Shown one piece after another: positions 21 to 32,387 of a DNA stretch of 64,000 bases (positions are counted from its first letter, which is position 1; each line of letters begins with the position of its first letter). Made by a program: the position numbers and the translations under genes. The notes below the pieces were generated by a model. The model ran no database searches and was not told where the DNA came from. It was given only the letters and a program-made list of their open reading frames with translations. Source of the DNA: Gracilimonas sp. GTDB lineage: Bacteria; Bacteroidota; Rhodothermia; Balneolales; Balneolaceae. Where the stretch lies: NCBI RefSeq assembly GCF_040218225.1, contig NZ_JAVJQO010000008.1, positions 1 through 64,000 on the forward strand, read 5' to 3'.

Positions 21-144
21 GTATAACAAGGCGTTTTAAATCGGACGCGGACGGGGTTCGATGGAAACTTGTTTGCAAGGAATTAATATCGCTACTTCAA
101 CTAAATTATAATCCCCGCGCCGTTTAAACGCTGGGCCGTTAGGC
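21..144 (+). other. Integron attC-like recombination site 1
   Basis: The site opens with GTATAAC (RYYYAAC type, 21-27) and closes with GTTAGGC (GTTRRRY type, 138-144), 124 nt in all. The inner arms are imperfectly complementary: GCGTTTTAAATCGGACGCGG on the left against CCGCGCCGTTTAAACGC on the right, with unpaired bases as in folded attC sites. The central part is shared almost word for word with the sites at 840 and 30320. The outermost bases GGTATAAC belong to a cassette that lies mostly before the window. I see the bases; calling it attC is inference from known attC architecture. Confidence 0.75.
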
Positions 145-161
145 CAACAAACCTATTCATC

Positions 162-833
162 ATGAATATTAAGAATTACATTTCGCTACTTTTTATACTG
201 GCGCTTTTAATTCCATCTAGCTATGGAAGTAATATTTATACTGTTCAGGCTGACTCTGCTACGATTGATAAAATTCAAATGAATCATAGAAATCTAGCTA
301 CTAAAATTGATTCATTACAAAAAGAACTTGATAAGTTTCAAATTTCTGAAAATTATTTTTCTTCGATACTTCAATCACAAACTGCAATATTTACTGGAAT
401 TGTAACTCTCTTATTATTCTTCTTTGGATTAATTGGGTGGCAAGCATATTTAAAAAAACACGAAAATCGACTAGATATTCTTGATGAGTGGAAAAATAAT
501 TTTGAGAAAGAATATCAGGATCTTAGGAAAACAAGCGACGAAATCAAATTTAATGCATTCAGAGCAAGTTACCATGTCCTAGAAAATGAATGGAAATTTA
601 TATATGCGGTCAGACTTGCAGAATATTTTGTAGACATCAAAGATAATAAAGGTGCACTTACTTGGTTGGGGCATGCAAAAAATGATTTTAACCAAGTAAC
701 AAAAATCATGAAACTGTATAAATATAATTCCTATCAATTGTTACAAGAACTTGAAGCCAATAATGACGAATCACTAGGTGAGAAAGCTAGAGAGTTACGT
801 AAATTGATAGAAAGTAAAACTGAAATGAAGTGA
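162..833 (+). CDS. Cassette-borne membrane protein with coiled coil, unknown function
   Basis: I do not recognise a family in this 223-residue protein. It starts with a hydrophobic signal-like segment (residues 8-22, ending SSYGSN), then a polar heptad-like stretch rich in I, L, K and Q (about 32-66) that may form a coiled coil. One transmembrane helix follows (about 73-95, FTGIVTLLLFFFGLIGW), then a charged helical C-terminal half. It lies alone between two attC-like sites and reads in the usual cassette direction. Its cassette ends are exactly complementary (GTTAGGCC at 138-145, GGCCTAAC at 839-846), which marks it as one complete gene cassette. It is very AT-rich compared with the core genes further on, consistent with foreign origin. 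Confidence 0.75.
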   Translation: MNIKNYISLLFILALLIPSSYGSNIYTVQADSATIDKIQMNHRNLATKIDSLQKELDKFQISENYFSSILQSQTAIFTGIVTLLLFFFGLIGWQAYLKKHENRLDILDEWKNNFEKEYQDLRKTSDEIKFNAFRASYHVLENEWKFIYAVRLAEYFVDIKDNKGALTWLGHAKNDFNQVTKIMKLYKYNSYQLLQELEANNDESLGEKARELRKLIESKTEMK

Positions 834-839
834 ATGTTG

Positions 840-961
840 GCCTAACAAGCGTTTTAAATCGGACGCGGACGGGGTTCGATGGAACTTGATTGCCAGGAAT
901 TAATTTCGCTACTTCAAAGAAATTATAATCCTTGTGGCGCTAAAAGGTCTGGCCGCTAAGT
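840..961 (+). other. Integron attC-like recombination site 2, 3' arm diverged
   Basis: Left end GCCTAAC (840-846), followed by AAGCGTTTTAAATCGGACG and a centre nearly identical to site 1. The right arm has drifted: where site 1 has CCGCGCCGTTTAAACGCTGGG, this copy reads CTTGTGGCGCTAAAAGGTCTGG. The terminal box is GCTAAGT (955-961), one mismatch from GTTRRRY. The loss of arm pairing suggests a decayed or weakly active site. Confidence 0.7.
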
Positions 962-27883: not shown

Positions 27884-28876
27884 TTAGTTAAGCAACATCT
27901 CCATAAACGTTTCCCGTACTTCCTTATTTGCATCTCGATACGTCCCAAACTCCACATGTTGATTGGTATTGGTTGTATCAATCTCAATCCCCCAAAGCGG
28001 TGAGAGGGTAGTAGGAAGCATCGAATAGCGCCCATCGCCAATGACGTTATTGTAATCAGGATGCCAAATCAAAACCGCATCCGATAGCTTGGAAAAACGG
28101 GCGATGTCTTTGTACAAAGTGGTTCCTTTCAGGTGATTGAATTCCTGTTTCCATTGGAGTAGGGAAGCGGATTCGCCGTCATATATTACAGGGTCAGAAA
28201 AAGGAATAAGTTTAACGCCAGCAGAATATAAACTATCCCCGGCAACGTAGCGGATACTCCAGAGCCAGTTGTTGGCAATGGTAGGTTTTCCAATCAGCTG
28301 GCTGATTTCGCGATTCTTATCTTCGGCTATTTGCCGGGCGATCTCCACGGCTTTTTGCTGCTGACTAAATCCAAAGAGGAGGTAGAGTGCCATCCATCCG
28401 AGGGCGAGCCAGGCGAAGAGCTGCTTACGTTTGTAGAAGGCCATTCCGGTGAAAATGATAACCCCAAGGGTAAAAAGGGGATCGAAGACGGAGATGATAT
28501 CCAGGGAATAGCGGGCGTCGGTGAAAGGCCAGAATATATGTACGCCGTAGCTGGTGAAAACATCGGTAATGCCGGCAGTGGCATAGCCGGCTAAGCTGAA
28601 GAAGTACGTTTCTTTTACCGTGAGGTATTTCTTCACGTACCACCAGAGCAGGAAAGTAGCCACCAACGCTCCAACCGGAATAAACACGATGGAATGGGTA
28701 AACTGCCGGTGCAGCTCCAGATTGAGCAGCGGATCGGAGGCACTCCCAAGAAACACATCCAGATCGGCGAGCATGGCCGAAGCCAACCCGGTAAAAGCCG
28801 CTGCCCGAAAGGTTCGTTTATCCGCAAACGACTGCGAGGCGGTGGCACCAATAAGTCCGTGAGTGACGGGGTCCAT
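27884..28876 (-). CDS. YdjM/DUF457-type membrane-bound metal-dependent hydrolase
   Basis: 330 residues. The N-terminus is diagnostic: MDPVTHGLIGATASQSF, then LADLDVFLGS and ELHRQFTHSIVFIPVGA, giving the conserved His and Asp residues proposed to bind metal in this family (His6, the Asp pair of ADLD, His of RQFTHS). Four or five membrane helices follow up to about residue 160 (for example YFFSLAGYATAGITDVFTSYG, another conserved block). The last 170 residues are a soluble domain. Distant relatives interact with LexA or are SOS-linked in enteric bacteria, but the reaction is unknown. It stands alone between repeat-rich regions. Confidence 0.8.
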   Translation of the reverse strand: MDPVTHGLIGATASQSFADKRTFRAAAFTGLASAMLADLDVFLGSASDPLLNLELHRQFTHSIVFIPVGALVATFLLWWYVKKYLTVKETYFFSLAGYATAGITDVFTSYGVHIFWPFTDARYSLDIISVFDPLFTLGVIIFTGMAFYKRKQLFAWLALGWMALYLLFGFSQQQKAVEIARQIAEDKNREISQLIGKPTIANNWLWSIRYVAGDSLYSAGVKLIPFSDPVIYDGESASLLQWKQEFNHLKGTTLYKDIARFSKLSDAVLIWHPDYNNVIGDGRYSMLPTTLSPLWGIEIDTTNTNQHVEFGTYRDANKEVRETFMEMLLN

Positions 28877-29287
28877 GGGATATTTCTCAGTTTATGTTAT
28901 AGAGTTTTCAGTAATTGAGCTGCGTAATGTCTAATGAAGATTCGTATTCAAATTAAAAACTAATTCTTAAAACTGTCATTTTGCGGCGAATGCCCGAAAT
29001 CTTGTAGTGTTTTAGGTAACAGATATTGAGTTAATGGCACCAACCAGATCCCTGCTTTCGCAGGGATGACTTCTCTTCAGCTGAAGGATTAAAAGTAGGA
29101 GTTTCGGAGAAAAGAAATGAAAGCGAATTGATTACAATAAAAGTTCAATAAACTTTTATTCAGCCGACTTATTTGAACGAGTTTATTGAACATTTTGGGA
29201 TAAAAATACCCCTAACCCCTAAATTTTAATGAAATTGAGAAATGAATGATATACATTTATGGGAGACGAAATGTTCATCAATAATAT
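28877..29287. other. Intergenic region with palindromic repeat and overlapping inverted repeats
   Basis: No gene seen. ATCCCTGCTTTCGCAGGGAT (29048-29067) is a palindromic repeat found again at 30805-30824. AATAAAAGTT (29136-29145) pairs with AACTTTTATT (29151-29160), and overlapping it GTTCAATAAAC (29143-29153) pairs with GTTTATTGAAC (29181-29191); the two folds exclude each other. The region borders the second cassette cluster. Confidence 0.55.
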
Positions 29288-29319
29288 GTTATACCACTAA
29301 GACTTAGAATAACTGATTT

Positions 29320-29568
29320 ATGAAATTCAACTTTAAAACCATACTAGGAATTAGTCTTATTCTCCTGGCAGTTTTCATAACAAGTGATACAACATATACT
29401 TTTATAAAAAGTCTCTTAGTGGGTAATGGAAGTTCAATTTGGTTTGCGGTTCTTTTCACGTGGTCATTAATTGGTACTTCATTATTATGTGGCGTTGTCC
29501 TACTTAATGGGGGTAAATCAAAAAATAATAGTGGTATAAAAAGCGCATTAACTGGGACGCGGACGTAG
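29320..29568 (+). CDS. Cassette-borne two-helix membrane protein, unknown function
   Basis: 82 residues with two hydrophobic helices at about 8-30 (ILGISLILLAVFITSDTTYTF) and 40-63 (IWFAVLFTWSLIGTSLLCGVVLL), then a polar tail. The final residues (SALTGTRT) and the stop are encoded by the left arm of the attC-like site that follows, a common arrangement in integron cassettes. The cassette starts at GTTATACC (29288-29295) and ends at GGTATAAA (29533-29540), 7 of 8 complementary. I do not recognise a family. AT-rich like the other cassettes. Confidence 0.65.
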   Translation: MKFNFKTILGISLILLAVFITSDTTYTFIKSLLVGNGSSIWFAVLFTWSLIGTSLLCGVVLLNGGKSKNNSGIKSALTGTRT

Positions 29569-29655
29569 CTTCGGTTTCCAAAGTTACTTGTTATAACTTT
29601 TTAGAGTTTAATTAACTAATAATCCCTGCGCCGTTTAAACGCTGGGTCGTTAGTG
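29534..29655 (+). other. Integron attC-like recombination site 3
   Basis: Left box GTATAAA (29534-29540, one mismatch), right box GTTAGTG (29649-29655, core GTTAG intact), 122 nt. The right arm CTGCGCCGTTTAAACGCTGG is the same as in site 1, and the left arm has GGACGCGGACG, but the centre differs from the other copies (TTCCAAAGTTACTTGTTATA), so it is a diverged family member. Confidence 0.65.
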
Positions 29656-29672
29656 TGCCTCTTCTGCGAGAC

Positions 29673-29720
29673 ATTTAGTACAATATATTGTTCTGAATTT
29701 AGTACATTAAACAGAACAAT
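29673..29720 (+). promoter_or_regulatory. Toxin-antitoxin operator with direct and inverted repeats
   Basis: ATTTAGTACA occurs at 29673-29682 and 29697-29706 (24 bp apart), and ATTGTTCTG (29687-29695) is inverted as CAGAACAAT (29712-29720). This sits just before the antitoxin start, where Phd/YefM-type antitoxins usually bind to repress their own operon. Confidence 0.6.
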
Positions 29721-29737
29721 AATTAAAGATTTTACCC

Positions 29738-30019
29738 ATGTCTCACATTCAACTTGACCAAGATATTCGTTCACTCTCTGATTTTCGAGCTAATGCTGCA
29801 TCTTATATTGAGCGTGTCAAATCAAAACGCCGACCGCTTATTCTTACTCAGCATGGCAAAAGTTCTGCCGTACTAATTGATGTAGAAGATTATCAAAAAA
29901 TGTTAGATAAGATTGAGTTATTGGAAGAATTATCTGCTGCCCGAAAGGAATTAGATAATGGAGAAGGTATAAGTCATGATGAATTCATAAGCGAACTGAG
30001 ATCACAATATTCATCATGA
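29738..30019 (+). CDS. Phd/YefM-family antitoxin
   Basis: 93 residues. The N-terminal half is the DNA-binding Phd/YefM fold: SLSDFRANAASYIERVKSKRRPLILTQHGKSSAVLIDVEDYQKM, in which the N-terminal 'DFRANAASYIE' and the 'RPLILTQHGKSSAVLIDVEDY' stretches are typical. The C-terminal half (ELLEELSAARKELDNGEGISHDEFISEL) is the acidic toxin-neutralising tail. It should bind and inhibit the toxin encoded immediately downstream and repress transcription through the repeats at 29673-29720. Its stop overlaps the toxin start (ATGA). The pair forms one gene cassette between attC-like sites 3 and 4, as is common in large integrons. Confidence 0.9.
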   Translation: MSHIQLDQDIRSLSDFRANAASYIERVKSKRRPLILTQHGKSSAVLIDVEDYQKMLDKIELLEELSAARKELDNGEGISHDEFISELRSQYSS

Positions 30020-30309
30020 AAATTATTTGGTCGCCAACGGCAAGAAACAAAACCAAAGAAATTCTCGAGTATATTTCTGAAGATAACCCAACTGCTGCTT
30101 TAGCTCTTATTGATTTAATCGAAGAGAAAGTTGAAAATCTAAGTCAAAATCCAGAGTCAGGAAGAGTGTTTCCACCAACAAATAATGACAAAATTCGAGA
30201 AATAATTGTCCATGAGAATTATGGGGTAATCTATGAGGTTAATCCCAATATAATCGAAGTTTTAACAGTTCGTCATTTCCGGCAAGACTTTTCTAACTAT
30301 AACATGTAA
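30016..30309 (+). CDS. RelE/ParE-family toxin
   Basis: 97 residues, a normal length. The ParE/RelE fold shows as IIWSPTARNKTKEILEYISEDNP, LIDLIEEKVENLSQNPESGRVFP, IREIIVHENYGVIYEVNPNIIEVLTVRHFRQDF. The last part (VRHFRQDF, similar to VxHxRR in ParE proteins) is the usual C-terminal signature. Members either cleave mRNA at the ribosome or poison gyrase; the sequence leans to the ParE-like branch but does not settle it. Coupled to the antitoxin by a 4-nt overlap. Its stop lies about 10 nt before the attC-like site. Confidence 0.9.
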   Translation: MKIIWSPTARNKTKEILEYISEDNPTAALALIDLIEEKVENLSQNPESGRVFPPTNNDKIREIIVHENYGVIYEVNPNIIEVLTVRHFRQDFSNYNM

Positions 30310-30319
30310 TTCTTTCGGT

Positions 30320-30449
30320 GCCTAACAAGCGTTTAAATCGGATACTGAATCAACTTCAGCAGAGACCGCGGACGGGGTGCGATGGAAACTTGATTGCCAG
30401 GAATCAATTTCGCTACTTCAAATAAATCATAATCCCCGCGCCGTTAGCT
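30320..30449 (+). other. Integron attC-like recombination site 4, rearranged arms
   Basis: Left box GCCTAAC (30320-30326), right box GTTAGCT (30443-30449, one mismatch). The left arm starts GCGTTTAAATCGGA and is then interrupted by about 26 nt that contain their own hairpin (CTGAATCAACTTCAG), before GCGGACGGGG resumes. The right arm lacks the GTTTAAACGCTGGG segment present in sites 1 and 3. The long arms therefore pair less well than in site 1. Confidence 0.65.
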
Positions 30450-30451
30450 GT

Positions 30452-30691
30452 ATGATAGAACTAATGAAGAAATTCCTTCCATATTTGTTTGGTCTAGCTT
30501 TCTTGTTTAGAGCTATGCGCCCGCCAAACATTTTCAATCTTATTCCAGCAGAAATTCATAGAAGTTTGTTCAAAAATATTTTTCCAGAAGTAGTAACAAT
30601 TTTTCTCTTTAACCTATTAATTGCCTTATTTATTTTTTCGGTTTCAAAAAAAATTATTACTGCTTTTTCAAATTCAAAAGTCAATGCCTGA
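30452..30691 (+). CDS. Cassette-borne two-helix membrane protein, unknown function
   Basis: 79 residues from the ATG at 30452, 3 nt after the attC right box. An in-frame ATG at 30377 lies inside the attC and would translate it, so it was rejected. Two hydrophobic segments: FLPYLFGLAFLFRAM (about 8-22) and EVVTIFLFNLLIALFIFSV (about 47-66). No family recognised. The cassette ends are exactly complementary (GTTAGCTG at 30443-30450, CAGCTAAC at 30708-30715), proof that it was captured as a cassette. AT-rich. Confidence 0.6.
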   Translation: MIELMKKFLPYLFGLAFLFRAMRPPNIFNLIPAEIHRSLFKNIFPEVVTIFLFNLLIALFIFSVSKKIITAFSNSKVNA

Positions 30692-30707
30692 GCCAAGTTT
30701 AAACATA

Positions 30708-30720
30708 CAGCTAACAAGCG
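30708..30720 (+). other. Truncated attC-like remnant
   Basis: CAGCTAACAAGCG is the left end of an attC of this family (compare GCCTAACAAGCG at 30320 and 840). After it the sequence switches to a dispersed element (TCTTTCTCGTTGATAAAGAG, related to 27811), so the rest of the site is gone. Confidence 0.6.
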
Positions 30721-30924: not shown

Positions 30925-32151
30925 CTACCGCCCAAACGAAATTACCTTAACCGGATCGGTGTTGGCCGCCACGCGGGCCGGGAAGTACGAAGCGATGGCA
31001 GAGAGGACGAGCGTAACCACGGTGGCAATCAGAAAATCCATAAGGTGTGGTTCAACCGGAGCATAACTCATGTAGTAGTTTTCCTGCGAGAGAGGTATGA
31101 TCTGGTAGTTAGCCTGCAGGAACCAGAAAAGTAATGATATACCAATCCCTATGATGAGTCCGACCCCGGCGACCATCAGGCCCTCCATTAAAAACACACG
31201 GCGGATGATCTTTGACTTACTGCCAATGGTTTTCAGCACGCCAATATCGCGGGTGCGCTCCAGCACCATCATCAGGATGGCTCCAATCAGGTTAAAGGCA
31301 GCTACAATAATCATCCCGCTGATTACCAGAGGGATCATGTTTTCCTGGAGCTCCACCCACGCAAAGATATTCCCGAACACGGTGTAAATGGTTTCGTTGT
31401 AATAGGGGAAAGTGAGACTTTCACTAAGCTTTTCCTTGAAAGGGAAAATATCTACATCATCCTGCAGCCTCAGTTCAATCCCATCAGCGGTATTTGGTGG
31501 ATATTTGAACAACTGTTGGGCGTGGCTTCGGCTCACCATGGCAAACACATCATCAAACCGATCGATACCTGTTTCGTAAATGCCCGTCAGCCTGAATTGC
31601 TTGATTTCCGGGGAGTTGATTAAAGAGGGAATGCCTTCAATGGTGTAAACAGTGATCACCGAGCCGAGTTCAGCCTGCAGCTCCTGGGCCAGCTGTGCAC
31701 CCATCACAATGCCGGGCATACCGGTGGAATCACGGCCTAAACTGTAGGTTCCTTTCGTGATGTATTTTCCGACTCCGAATGAAGGTTTATCCAAGTCGAC
31801 ACCTTTAAGGGTGGTTCCGGTTACGGCATCCCGGGTTTGGATCATCACCTGACCCTGAATTACAATTTGCTTGCTCTTGATTTCCGGGTATCGGTCGAGG
31901 TGTGCAAAAACGGTATCCACCCGTTCGATGGGTCGGTCGGTAAACGTAGTCACGGTGATATGCGGGGCAAAATCCATGATCTTTCCGTTAATCGTGGATT
32001 TAAATCCGTGAACAATGGAAAGGGCGATCAAGAGTCCGGCTGAACCGACTGCAATGCCGGTAATCGACATGTACTTGATGAACGACAAAAAGCCCGAGCT
32101 TTTGCGCGAGCCTTTGAAATATCGAAGCGCCAGATACCACTCAAATTTCAT
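30925..32151 (-). CDS. LolC/LolE-type ABC transporter permease
   Basis: 408 residues from ATG at 32151. A TTG start at 32166 would add five residues but lies inside a repeat, so ATG is preferred. Typical MacB/FtsX architecture: helix 1 near the N-terminus (GIAVGSAGLLIALSIVHGF), a large periplasmic core (about 45-260), then three helices in the C-terminal FtsX domain (MIPLVISGMIIVAAFNLIGA; GLMVAGVGLIIGIGISLLFWF; FLIATVVTLVLSAIASYF). The opening WYLALRYFKGSRKSSGFLSF is the LolC/E signature. With an ATPase (not in the window) it would release lipoproteins from the inner membrane. The single permease, rather than a LolC plus LolE pair, is normal in this phylum. Confidence 0.88.
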   Translation of the reverse strand: MKFEWYLALRYFKGSRKSSGFLSFIKYMSITGIAVGSAGLLIALSIVHGFKSTINGKIMDFAPHITVTTFTDRPIERVDTVFAHLDRYPEIKSKQIVIQGQVMIQTRDAVTGTTLKGVDLDKPSFGVGKYITKGTYSLGRDSTGMPGIVMGAQLAQELQAELGSVITVYTIEGIPSLINSPEIKQFRLTGIYETGIDRFDDVFAMVSRSHAQQLFKYPPNTADGIELRLQDDVDIFPFKEKLSESLTFPYYNETIYTVFGNIFAWVELQENMIPLVISGMIIVAAFNLIGAILMMVLERTRDIGVLKTIGSKSKIIRRVFLMEGLMVAGVGLIIGIGISLLFWFLQANYQIIPLSQENYYMSYAPVEPHLMDFLIATVVTLVLSAIASYFPARVAANTDPVKVISFGR

Positions 32152-32162
32152 CTGTTTAAACT

Positions 32163-32387
32163 CCAAGTTTCAAGTATCAAATTCCAAAAACCAGAAAATA
32201 CCGTCATTGCGAGGAGTGAATGCGACGTGGCAATCTCCTTTTCAGGACTTGTTGCTTGATTAATGAAGATTGCTTCGTCGTTATAAATCCCAATTACAGT
32301 TTTAACTGTTCGTCTCCTCGCAATGACGGTAAATGATGATCTATAAGTTTTTATTCTGGTCATTGGAATTTGGAGCTTGTGACTTGG
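32163..32387. repeat. Nested inverted-repeat element
   Basis: Inner element 32200-32330: perfect 17-bp terminal inverted repeats (ACCGTCATTGCGAGGAG at 32200-32216, its complement at 32314-32330), 131 bp. Around it is a second, imperfect inverted pair of 34 nt (32163-32196 starting CCAAGTTTCAAG, 32354-32387 starting TTCTGGTCATTGG). The whole unit fills the gap between two minus-strand genes and encodes nothing. Confidence 0.75.

Follow-up and report, generated by a model that had tools for sequence, protein, structure and literature searches.

Integrase-less gene cassette arrays and orphan attI sites in the genus Gracilimonas

A sedentary chromosomal integron consists of an intI gene, an attI site and an array of attC sites that are alike, and such integrons are known chiefly from Vibrio and Xanthomonas. 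The recombination of attC as a single strand is an established mechanism of integrons. Arrays without an integrase have been proposed to be degraded integrons; in the portions of that paper drawn on here, CALINs have at least two attC sites, no nearby intI and cassettes with their own attC (PMC9024848). According to the same portions, IntegronFinder 2.0 does not seek attI outside class 1, where attI sites are hardly catalogued (PMC9024848). Three origins of CALINs have been proposed, and the list of phyla in the accessible text of that source contains no Balneolota, the phylum to which Gracilimonas belongs (PMC8618304). In excerpts of other papers, the CALINs of Xanthomonas were reported at seven loci and described as mobilisable in trans (PMC12444791), the delta-attI cassettes of mobile integrons were recombined by IntI1 (PMC12901181), and attG was described as a site unlike attI or attC (PMC12901181, PMC12444791). 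A scan of the available text of PMC7923331 for taxon names found none. Our literature search, which covered few subscription papers, turned up neither a description of arrays that lack an integrase and are headed by attI nor any account of integrons in Gracilimonas, and no paper combining integron integrase, attC and Balneol-, which agrees with an earlier sequence-only reading of the present DNA that had called the group little described.

In our study, the window was the stretch from base 1 to 64000 (64 kb) of contig C8 of a Gracilimonas genome (G000) of 3.54 Mb, which is 98.56% complete in 11 contigs. Nine further genomes of the same genus were included (G001–G009). The window is best described as two integrase-less arrays, each of which would start at an attI without intI, the attI of the first array lying over the contig end. 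No IntI match was found in the window (tblastn, E<1), as the sequence-only reading had stated, and its CALIN label fits locally, since at least two attC sites are present and the intI lies about 608 kb from the first array. The label 'hydrolase' for window positions 27884–28876 was dropped, the Pfam match being YdjM. The starts of contigs C2 and C8 and the ends of C4 and C7 stopped inside cassette arrays. Cassettes are under-counted in the G000 assembly because of these four contig ends.

Two covariance models of attC were used, R1 built from 15 copies including those of the window, and R2 built from 12 copies of G000 that all lie outside the window. The first array lay at the start of the window, with all of its parts on the plus strand. 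The 3' end of a preceding cassette (1–20), the gene of which is on C2 (134–496, minus strand), was followed by attC site 1 at 21–145 (R1 137.5 bits, R2 133 bits), which contained the core GTTAGGC at 138–144 with the crossover between 138 and 139. The next integron gene cassette was found from nucleotide 139 to 956 and consisted of the 5' end TTAGGCC, a gene and its own attC, the 3' limit being approximate owing to the decay of that attC. The cassette gene (162–833, 223 aa) is predicted by eye to encode a membrane-type protein and had no Pfam family above cut-off; it lay between GTTAGGCC at 138–145 and the complementary GGCCTAAC at 839–846. The attC site 2 at 839–960 (R1 104.6 bits, R2 83 bits) was decayed in its right half, with GCTAAGT in place of GTTRRRY and several broken pairs in the R2 alignment. 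It was followed by an ORF of 159 aa (972–1451), either a cassette gene or a native gene, with no Pfam family above cut-off and no attC beyond it in the R1 search. The sequence and both models agreed with the earlier claim of two attC sites around one gene with complementary cassette ends.

An alignment of sites 1 and 2 extended over about 90 bp, with 92% of the positions matching (E 5.5e-30). With site 2 as query, 13 further matches were found in the genome at 87–94% identity (E 9e-22 or better), two of which represent one sequence that appears on each of two overlapping contigs. In the 64-kb window R1 gave four matches at E up to 1, all with E of 7.1e-16 or lower, at 21–143 (137.5 bits), 29534–29654 (106 bits), 840–960 (104.6 bits) and 30354–30452 (67.7 bits). 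The window-independent R2 recovered the same four sites (E 4.1e-35 to 5.8e-16) and, at E up to 1, no attC beyond them. Over the whole G000 genome, 23 matches were listed with R1 and an intI was found elsewhere in the genome; the models accepted the copies, and the cassettes carried different genes. The stated attC structure contained 4 + 17 pairs, with three unpaired bases in the left arm. On 15 copies, 91.4% of the cells in the R''/R' and L''/L' arms were paired as compared with 36–44% when the arms were slid by 1–3 columns, a comparison biased in favour of the stems, which were stated from these very sequences. On the same copies two-sided changes were present in 13 cells (mean of 4.7 in shuffles, with none of 500 reaching this count) and in 6 pairs (3.4 in shuffles, with 11 of 500 reaching it). 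The 15 copies omit the truncated or diverged w30319, c4b, c4c and c2a of the initial alignment of 19 copies, in which RNAalifold found only 8 pairs. Two subtypes of attC covaried, GCGTTT/AAACGC and GCGCAT/ATGCGC. Plain DNA folding of sites 1 and 2 was not clearly better than that of shuffled sequences, with z values of -1.52 and 0.08 for the bottom strand and -1.72 and -0.98 for the top strand. The core sites are expected to read RYYYAAC and GTTRRRY; site 1 ended with GTTAGGC, site 2 started with CCTAAC and ended with GCTAAGT, and many attC copies ended with GTTATAC instead of the strict GTTRRRY. The 8-mer GTTAGGCC is common by itself (17 places in the genome), and therefore the case for attC rests on whole sites. 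A search of the window against Rfam gave no match; we know of no attC family in Rfam. At the level of sequence, the window repeats are confirmed as integron attC sites, of which site 2 is decayed.

Two attC, at window 29534–29654 and at C2:134203–134324 of G000, were chimeric: a left arm of the GCGCAT subtype was combined with a right arm (AAACGC or AAACAC) that belongs to the second subtype. Their stems mispair because the arms stem from different subtypes. A third form of attC was present at two loci, window 30319–30452 and C4:667008–667120 of G000; its left arm contained about 24 nt of inserted sequence and its right arm was shortened.

The nucleotides 1–141 of the window were exactly identical to the reversed start of contig C2. 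Past this overlap, C2 contained the 120-aa cassette gene (134–496) and an attC (522–649), followed by three genes in the opposite orientation (TetR, metallo-beta-lactamase fold and polyketide-cyclase-like) and then by a copy of attI type A that shared 98.9% identity with the intI-linked attI over 180 bp. The start of the attI A copy coincided exactly with the crossover in a copy of attI B, so that two attI are nested, the usual G at that place being a T, and a gene of the MMPL family adjoined them. The MMPL gene and an FtsX-type gene were found on one contig in G005, G006 and G007, about 33, 25 and 28 kb apart, respectively; the FtsX-type gene of the window is at 30925–32166, and joining C2 to C8 predicts about 34 kb from it to the MMPL gene. 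The join, by which the first array would continue to the attI copies, is likely but not proven, because the overlap of 141 bp may be an assembler k-mer. This probable run over the contig end to attI, and the attI at the head of the second array, go beyond what had been noticed earlier.

The second array (29289–30715) was also on the plus strand and was headed by an orphan attI of type C at 29134–29288, with no intI beside it and the crossover between G29288 and T29289. Over 158 bp, nucleotides 29134–29291 showed 89.9% identity with the intI-linked attI of G004. A type C attI was present at the same left flank in G003 (C9) and G004 (C14), where the sequence differed directly past the crossover and matched only in attC-sized stretches; in the stretches compared from G001, G005 and G007, no attI was found at this place. 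The first cassette contained an ORF of 82 aa (29320–29568) without a Pfam match and the attC of chimeric subtype at 29534–29654 (R1 106 bits; R2 94 bits, with mispairs marked). Its 5' end, GTTATACC, agreed with its own R'', GGTATAAA, at 7 of 8 bases, one base short of an exact 8-nt match. The second cassette contained a Phd/YefM-type antitoxin gene (29738–30019; PF02604, 65.9 bits, cut-off 29.8) followed by a ParE-type toxin gene (30016–30309; PF05016, 67 bits, cut-off 23) and the variant attC at 30319–30452, recognised from the R1 match at 30354–30452 (67.7 bits), the sequence and the alignment. The ends of the last cassette (30443–30715) were complementary over 10 bases, GTTAGCTGTA at 30443–30452 and TACAGCTAAC at 30706–30715; its attC beyond 30715 was missing, with no R1 match there.

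An IntI was found on the same contig at C8:608477–609421 (minus strand) without an internal stop. It scored 445.7 bits with TIGR02249 (curated cut-off 265) and was the one IntI above cut-off in G000. Its best solved match was IntI4 (2a3v, E 1.2e-82), aligned over residues 4–318 with two one-residue gaps, and the match of XerA to it left residues 178–237 unaligned, the part by which IntI is distinguished from Xer. With an attI at C8:609456–609653 and five model-found attC from 610179 to 613785, it formed a complete integron at C8:608477–613785. This locus, with IntI, attI and five alike attC, resembles a sedentary chromosomal integron, but G000 differs in having further arrays elsewhere that are headed by the same or other attI types. 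The suggestion of a novel recombination system, made from the sequence alone, was not borne out: the recombinase is ordinary and stands above cut-off with attI and five attC on the same contig, and the recombination system is one already known. The unusual features are the attI sites that head arrays with no intI beside them, and the cassette exchange at such sites.

In a sample of the class, IntI above cut-off was present in 92 of 195 genomes. Within the genus, IntI was found at E<=1e-60 in nine genomes, of which eight had one match (partial in G008) and G004 had three, and G009 (83% complete) had no IntI above cut-off. The named relatives of the IntI included Gracilimonas mengyeensis (86% identity) and G. 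amylolytica (75% identity). The attI beside intI was of type A in G000, G003 and also in G021 of another genus, type B in G002 and in a diverged form in G006, type C in G004, and type D in G001, G005, G007 and G008. Several of these types had little in common beyond a TAATATG^TTA-like end.

Searches with attI types A, C, B and D over 37 genomes, in which the matches were checked in the DNA, listed 45 attI copies in G000–G009, 9 beside intI and 36 orphan. Among the 36 orphans, 13 rest on 51 bp or less (10 cores of about 33–37 bp and 3 matches of 50–51 bp); the count includes C4:764011 of G006, further down the intI-linked array of that genome, takes in two copies on C2 of G000 that head one array, and treats orthologous places separately per species. 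It omits C8:256632 of G000 and C1:949039 of G007, which fall short of the crossover, the degraded C21:113403 of G004, the left-part-only C4:809576 of G005 and C4:1219932 of G006, matches to only a part of the intI promoter, and the copies of G018 from another genus. A model-found attC was present after 27 of the 36 orphans (E up to 0.1), in some only after 2–4.5 kb, and the same search found none after the other 9. The tblastn search at E<=1e-5 found IntI only at loci already known to carry intI; at E<1, 7 of 11 orphan loci had no match and 4 had chance-level pieces of 17–29 aa (E 0.11–0.97). A complementarity of at least 8 nt between the bases after the crossover and the R'' of the first attC was present in 20 of 31 attI, that is, in 7/7 beside intI and 13/24 orphans, as compared with 11/930 mismatched pairs. 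The 11 orphans with less complementarity include the type C attI of the window and damaged crossovers such as that of G001 at locus II.

Cassettes might have entered ordinary sites (attG) off target, the attI-like heads being chance or unrelated repeats. Places with a single attC do exist (C8:535034), and several attI types are, as described above, alike in little besides their end. However, the orphan heads matched the sequence between intI and the first cassette of relatives, over 100–200 bp for most of the 23 long copies, which makes off-target insertion highly unlikely. The cassettes reported at attG in the available text of PMC12901181 and PMC12444791 are likewise outside the integron locus, whereas the heads found here are long attI matches at conserved loci.

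The 180-bp attI A module of G000 had the same start bases (TTATATTG) in three contexts, one of which was exactly in the crossover of attI B. For the variant of attI B that has a left part of its own, seven matches were found in four kinds of place, none beside intI: beside the MMPL gene (G000, G001, G006 and G007), inside an array of G001, and at two other loci of G005. A tentative and rather doubtful reading of this pattern is that attI modules without intI multiply in Gracilimonas, with copies arising both at new sites of the chromosome and within other attI; one integrase would then have many platforms.

The loci without intI were compared between the sister genomes G001 and G007. At locus IV, the identity was 93.8% between -4371 and +4; unrelated segments of 3.4 and 2.8 kb followed, beyond which the identity was 96.4%. 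At locus II, the identity was 95.8% up to +6/+1 and, past differing segments of 2.0 and 0.7 kb, 93.0%. At both loci the left edges were at most 6 bases from the attI crossover, and the sequences rejoined at an attC crossover (GTTATAC; GTTAGCAACC), behind attC of unlike sequence. The tblastn search found no IntI at these loci except one chance-level fragment (17 aa, E 0.95). Whole cassettes were thus replaced at two orphan attI between two sister genomes. Since G001 and G007 share intI-less flanks and differ in cassettes, the exchange would have continued when intI was already absent from the loci; otherwise two separate losses of intI with identical edges would be required. The exchange loci carried attI types B and D and none of type C. 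In G001, the first crossover of locus II was damaged and a second attI B copy was present inside the array. The first cassette of locus III was common to both genomes (91% over 777 bp). In G000, both flanks of locus IV were present (right flank 92.8% to G001) with attI B instead of D; the attI type at one locus thus differs between species.

Such differences could also arise by homologous recombination between arrays with common attI or attC sequence, with no integrase action at the orphan sites. The attI and attC copies within a genome are 80–99% alike, and the change of attI type at the same locus between species is consistent with this. However, such recombination is expected anywhere in the repeats, whereas both ends of the changed segments were crossover bases, and the attC ahead of the right-hand edges were unlike one another; we consider this explanation quite improbable.

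The orphan attI might instead be relics of formerly complete integrons, in which intI was deleted and the arrays have only decayed since. The flank genes at C8:604871–607430 adjoin intI in G000, G001 and G007, and G005 contained at that place an attI B with a portion of the motif of the intI promoter, as well as an attC and the right flank known from G000, but no intI. The attC at 840–960 and some crossovers are decayed, as relics would be. The whole-cassette differences of G001 and G007 past shared intI-less flanks speak against relics, which are unlikely as the general explanation; intI loss can explain some orphans, as in G005, but not the later exchange.

We therefore favour, with a probability of about two-thirds, that one IntI serves several attI in trans, the orphan attI as well as its own. 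The IntI would recognise folded bottom strands of attC, excise cassettes as circles and insert the circles at the attI beside itself and at orphan attI. We infer both the agency of IntI in trans and the use of the type C attI of the window by the IntI of G000; against the latter, type C goes with an IntI that is 61% identical to that of G000. Further points against action in trans are the first cassette common to G001 and G007 at locus III, the 11 orphans with less than 8 nt of complementarity, and the 9 orphans after which the search found no attC.

Beyond their likeness to the CALINs of the consulted parts of PMC9024848, the present loci have attI heads and cassette turnover after the locus stood without intI. 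The Xanthomonas CALINs off the ilvD integron are similar in being integrase-less arrays at several conserved loci of an integron-bearing genus; in the available text, however, no attI heads were reported, and the CALIN of X. citri pv. citri contained the same two cassettes throughout (PMC12444791). The delta-attI cassettes also place attI sequence off intI and inside arrays, but in the excerpts of PMC12901181 one resistance cassette has a shortened attI in the position of its attC, whereas here attI of 100–200 bp head arrays at separate chromosomal loci, and some lie inside arrays (G001). A likeness to delta-attI was seen outside the window, in contig C51 of G018 from another genus (L237:3999–4968), where two attI-like sites 919 bp apart enclose one cassette. 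By eye, this cassette contained the R'' GCATGCTAAC followed by the second attI end in place of a full attC.

Should a single integrase supply several arrays that are headed by attI, many of the arrays now regarded as dead may be live, the expression of cassettes could be set at several places of the chromosome, and surveys that skip attI would miss such arrays. With its four types of attI, a single intI in most species, and sister genomes between which whole cassettes were exchanged, the genus allows a direct test.

In 16 of 20 relatives, the sequence CCTTACA was present within the 200 nt that precede intI, the place in G000 being C8:609463–609509 (L054:8964–9010), and in many relatives GTTAGAGCG or GTAAGAGCG stood 23 nt before it. 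The 38-bp motif upstream of intI also adjoined genes encoding a DUF4342 protein, a 23S rRNA intervening-sequence protein and a protein with a weak match to sigma-70 region 2, the last of which had a TPR neighbour. The motif is possibly a shared control element and is not the expected SOS box. Its reading as an ECF-sigma motif was not established, the Sigma70_r2 match reaching 17.5 bits (cut-off 24). Just past intI in G001 and G007, short extra matches to the IntI C-terminus were found (45% over 57–58 aa) at L249:2788–2940 and L250:4238–4643. These may be old remnants of a second integrase or partial duplications.
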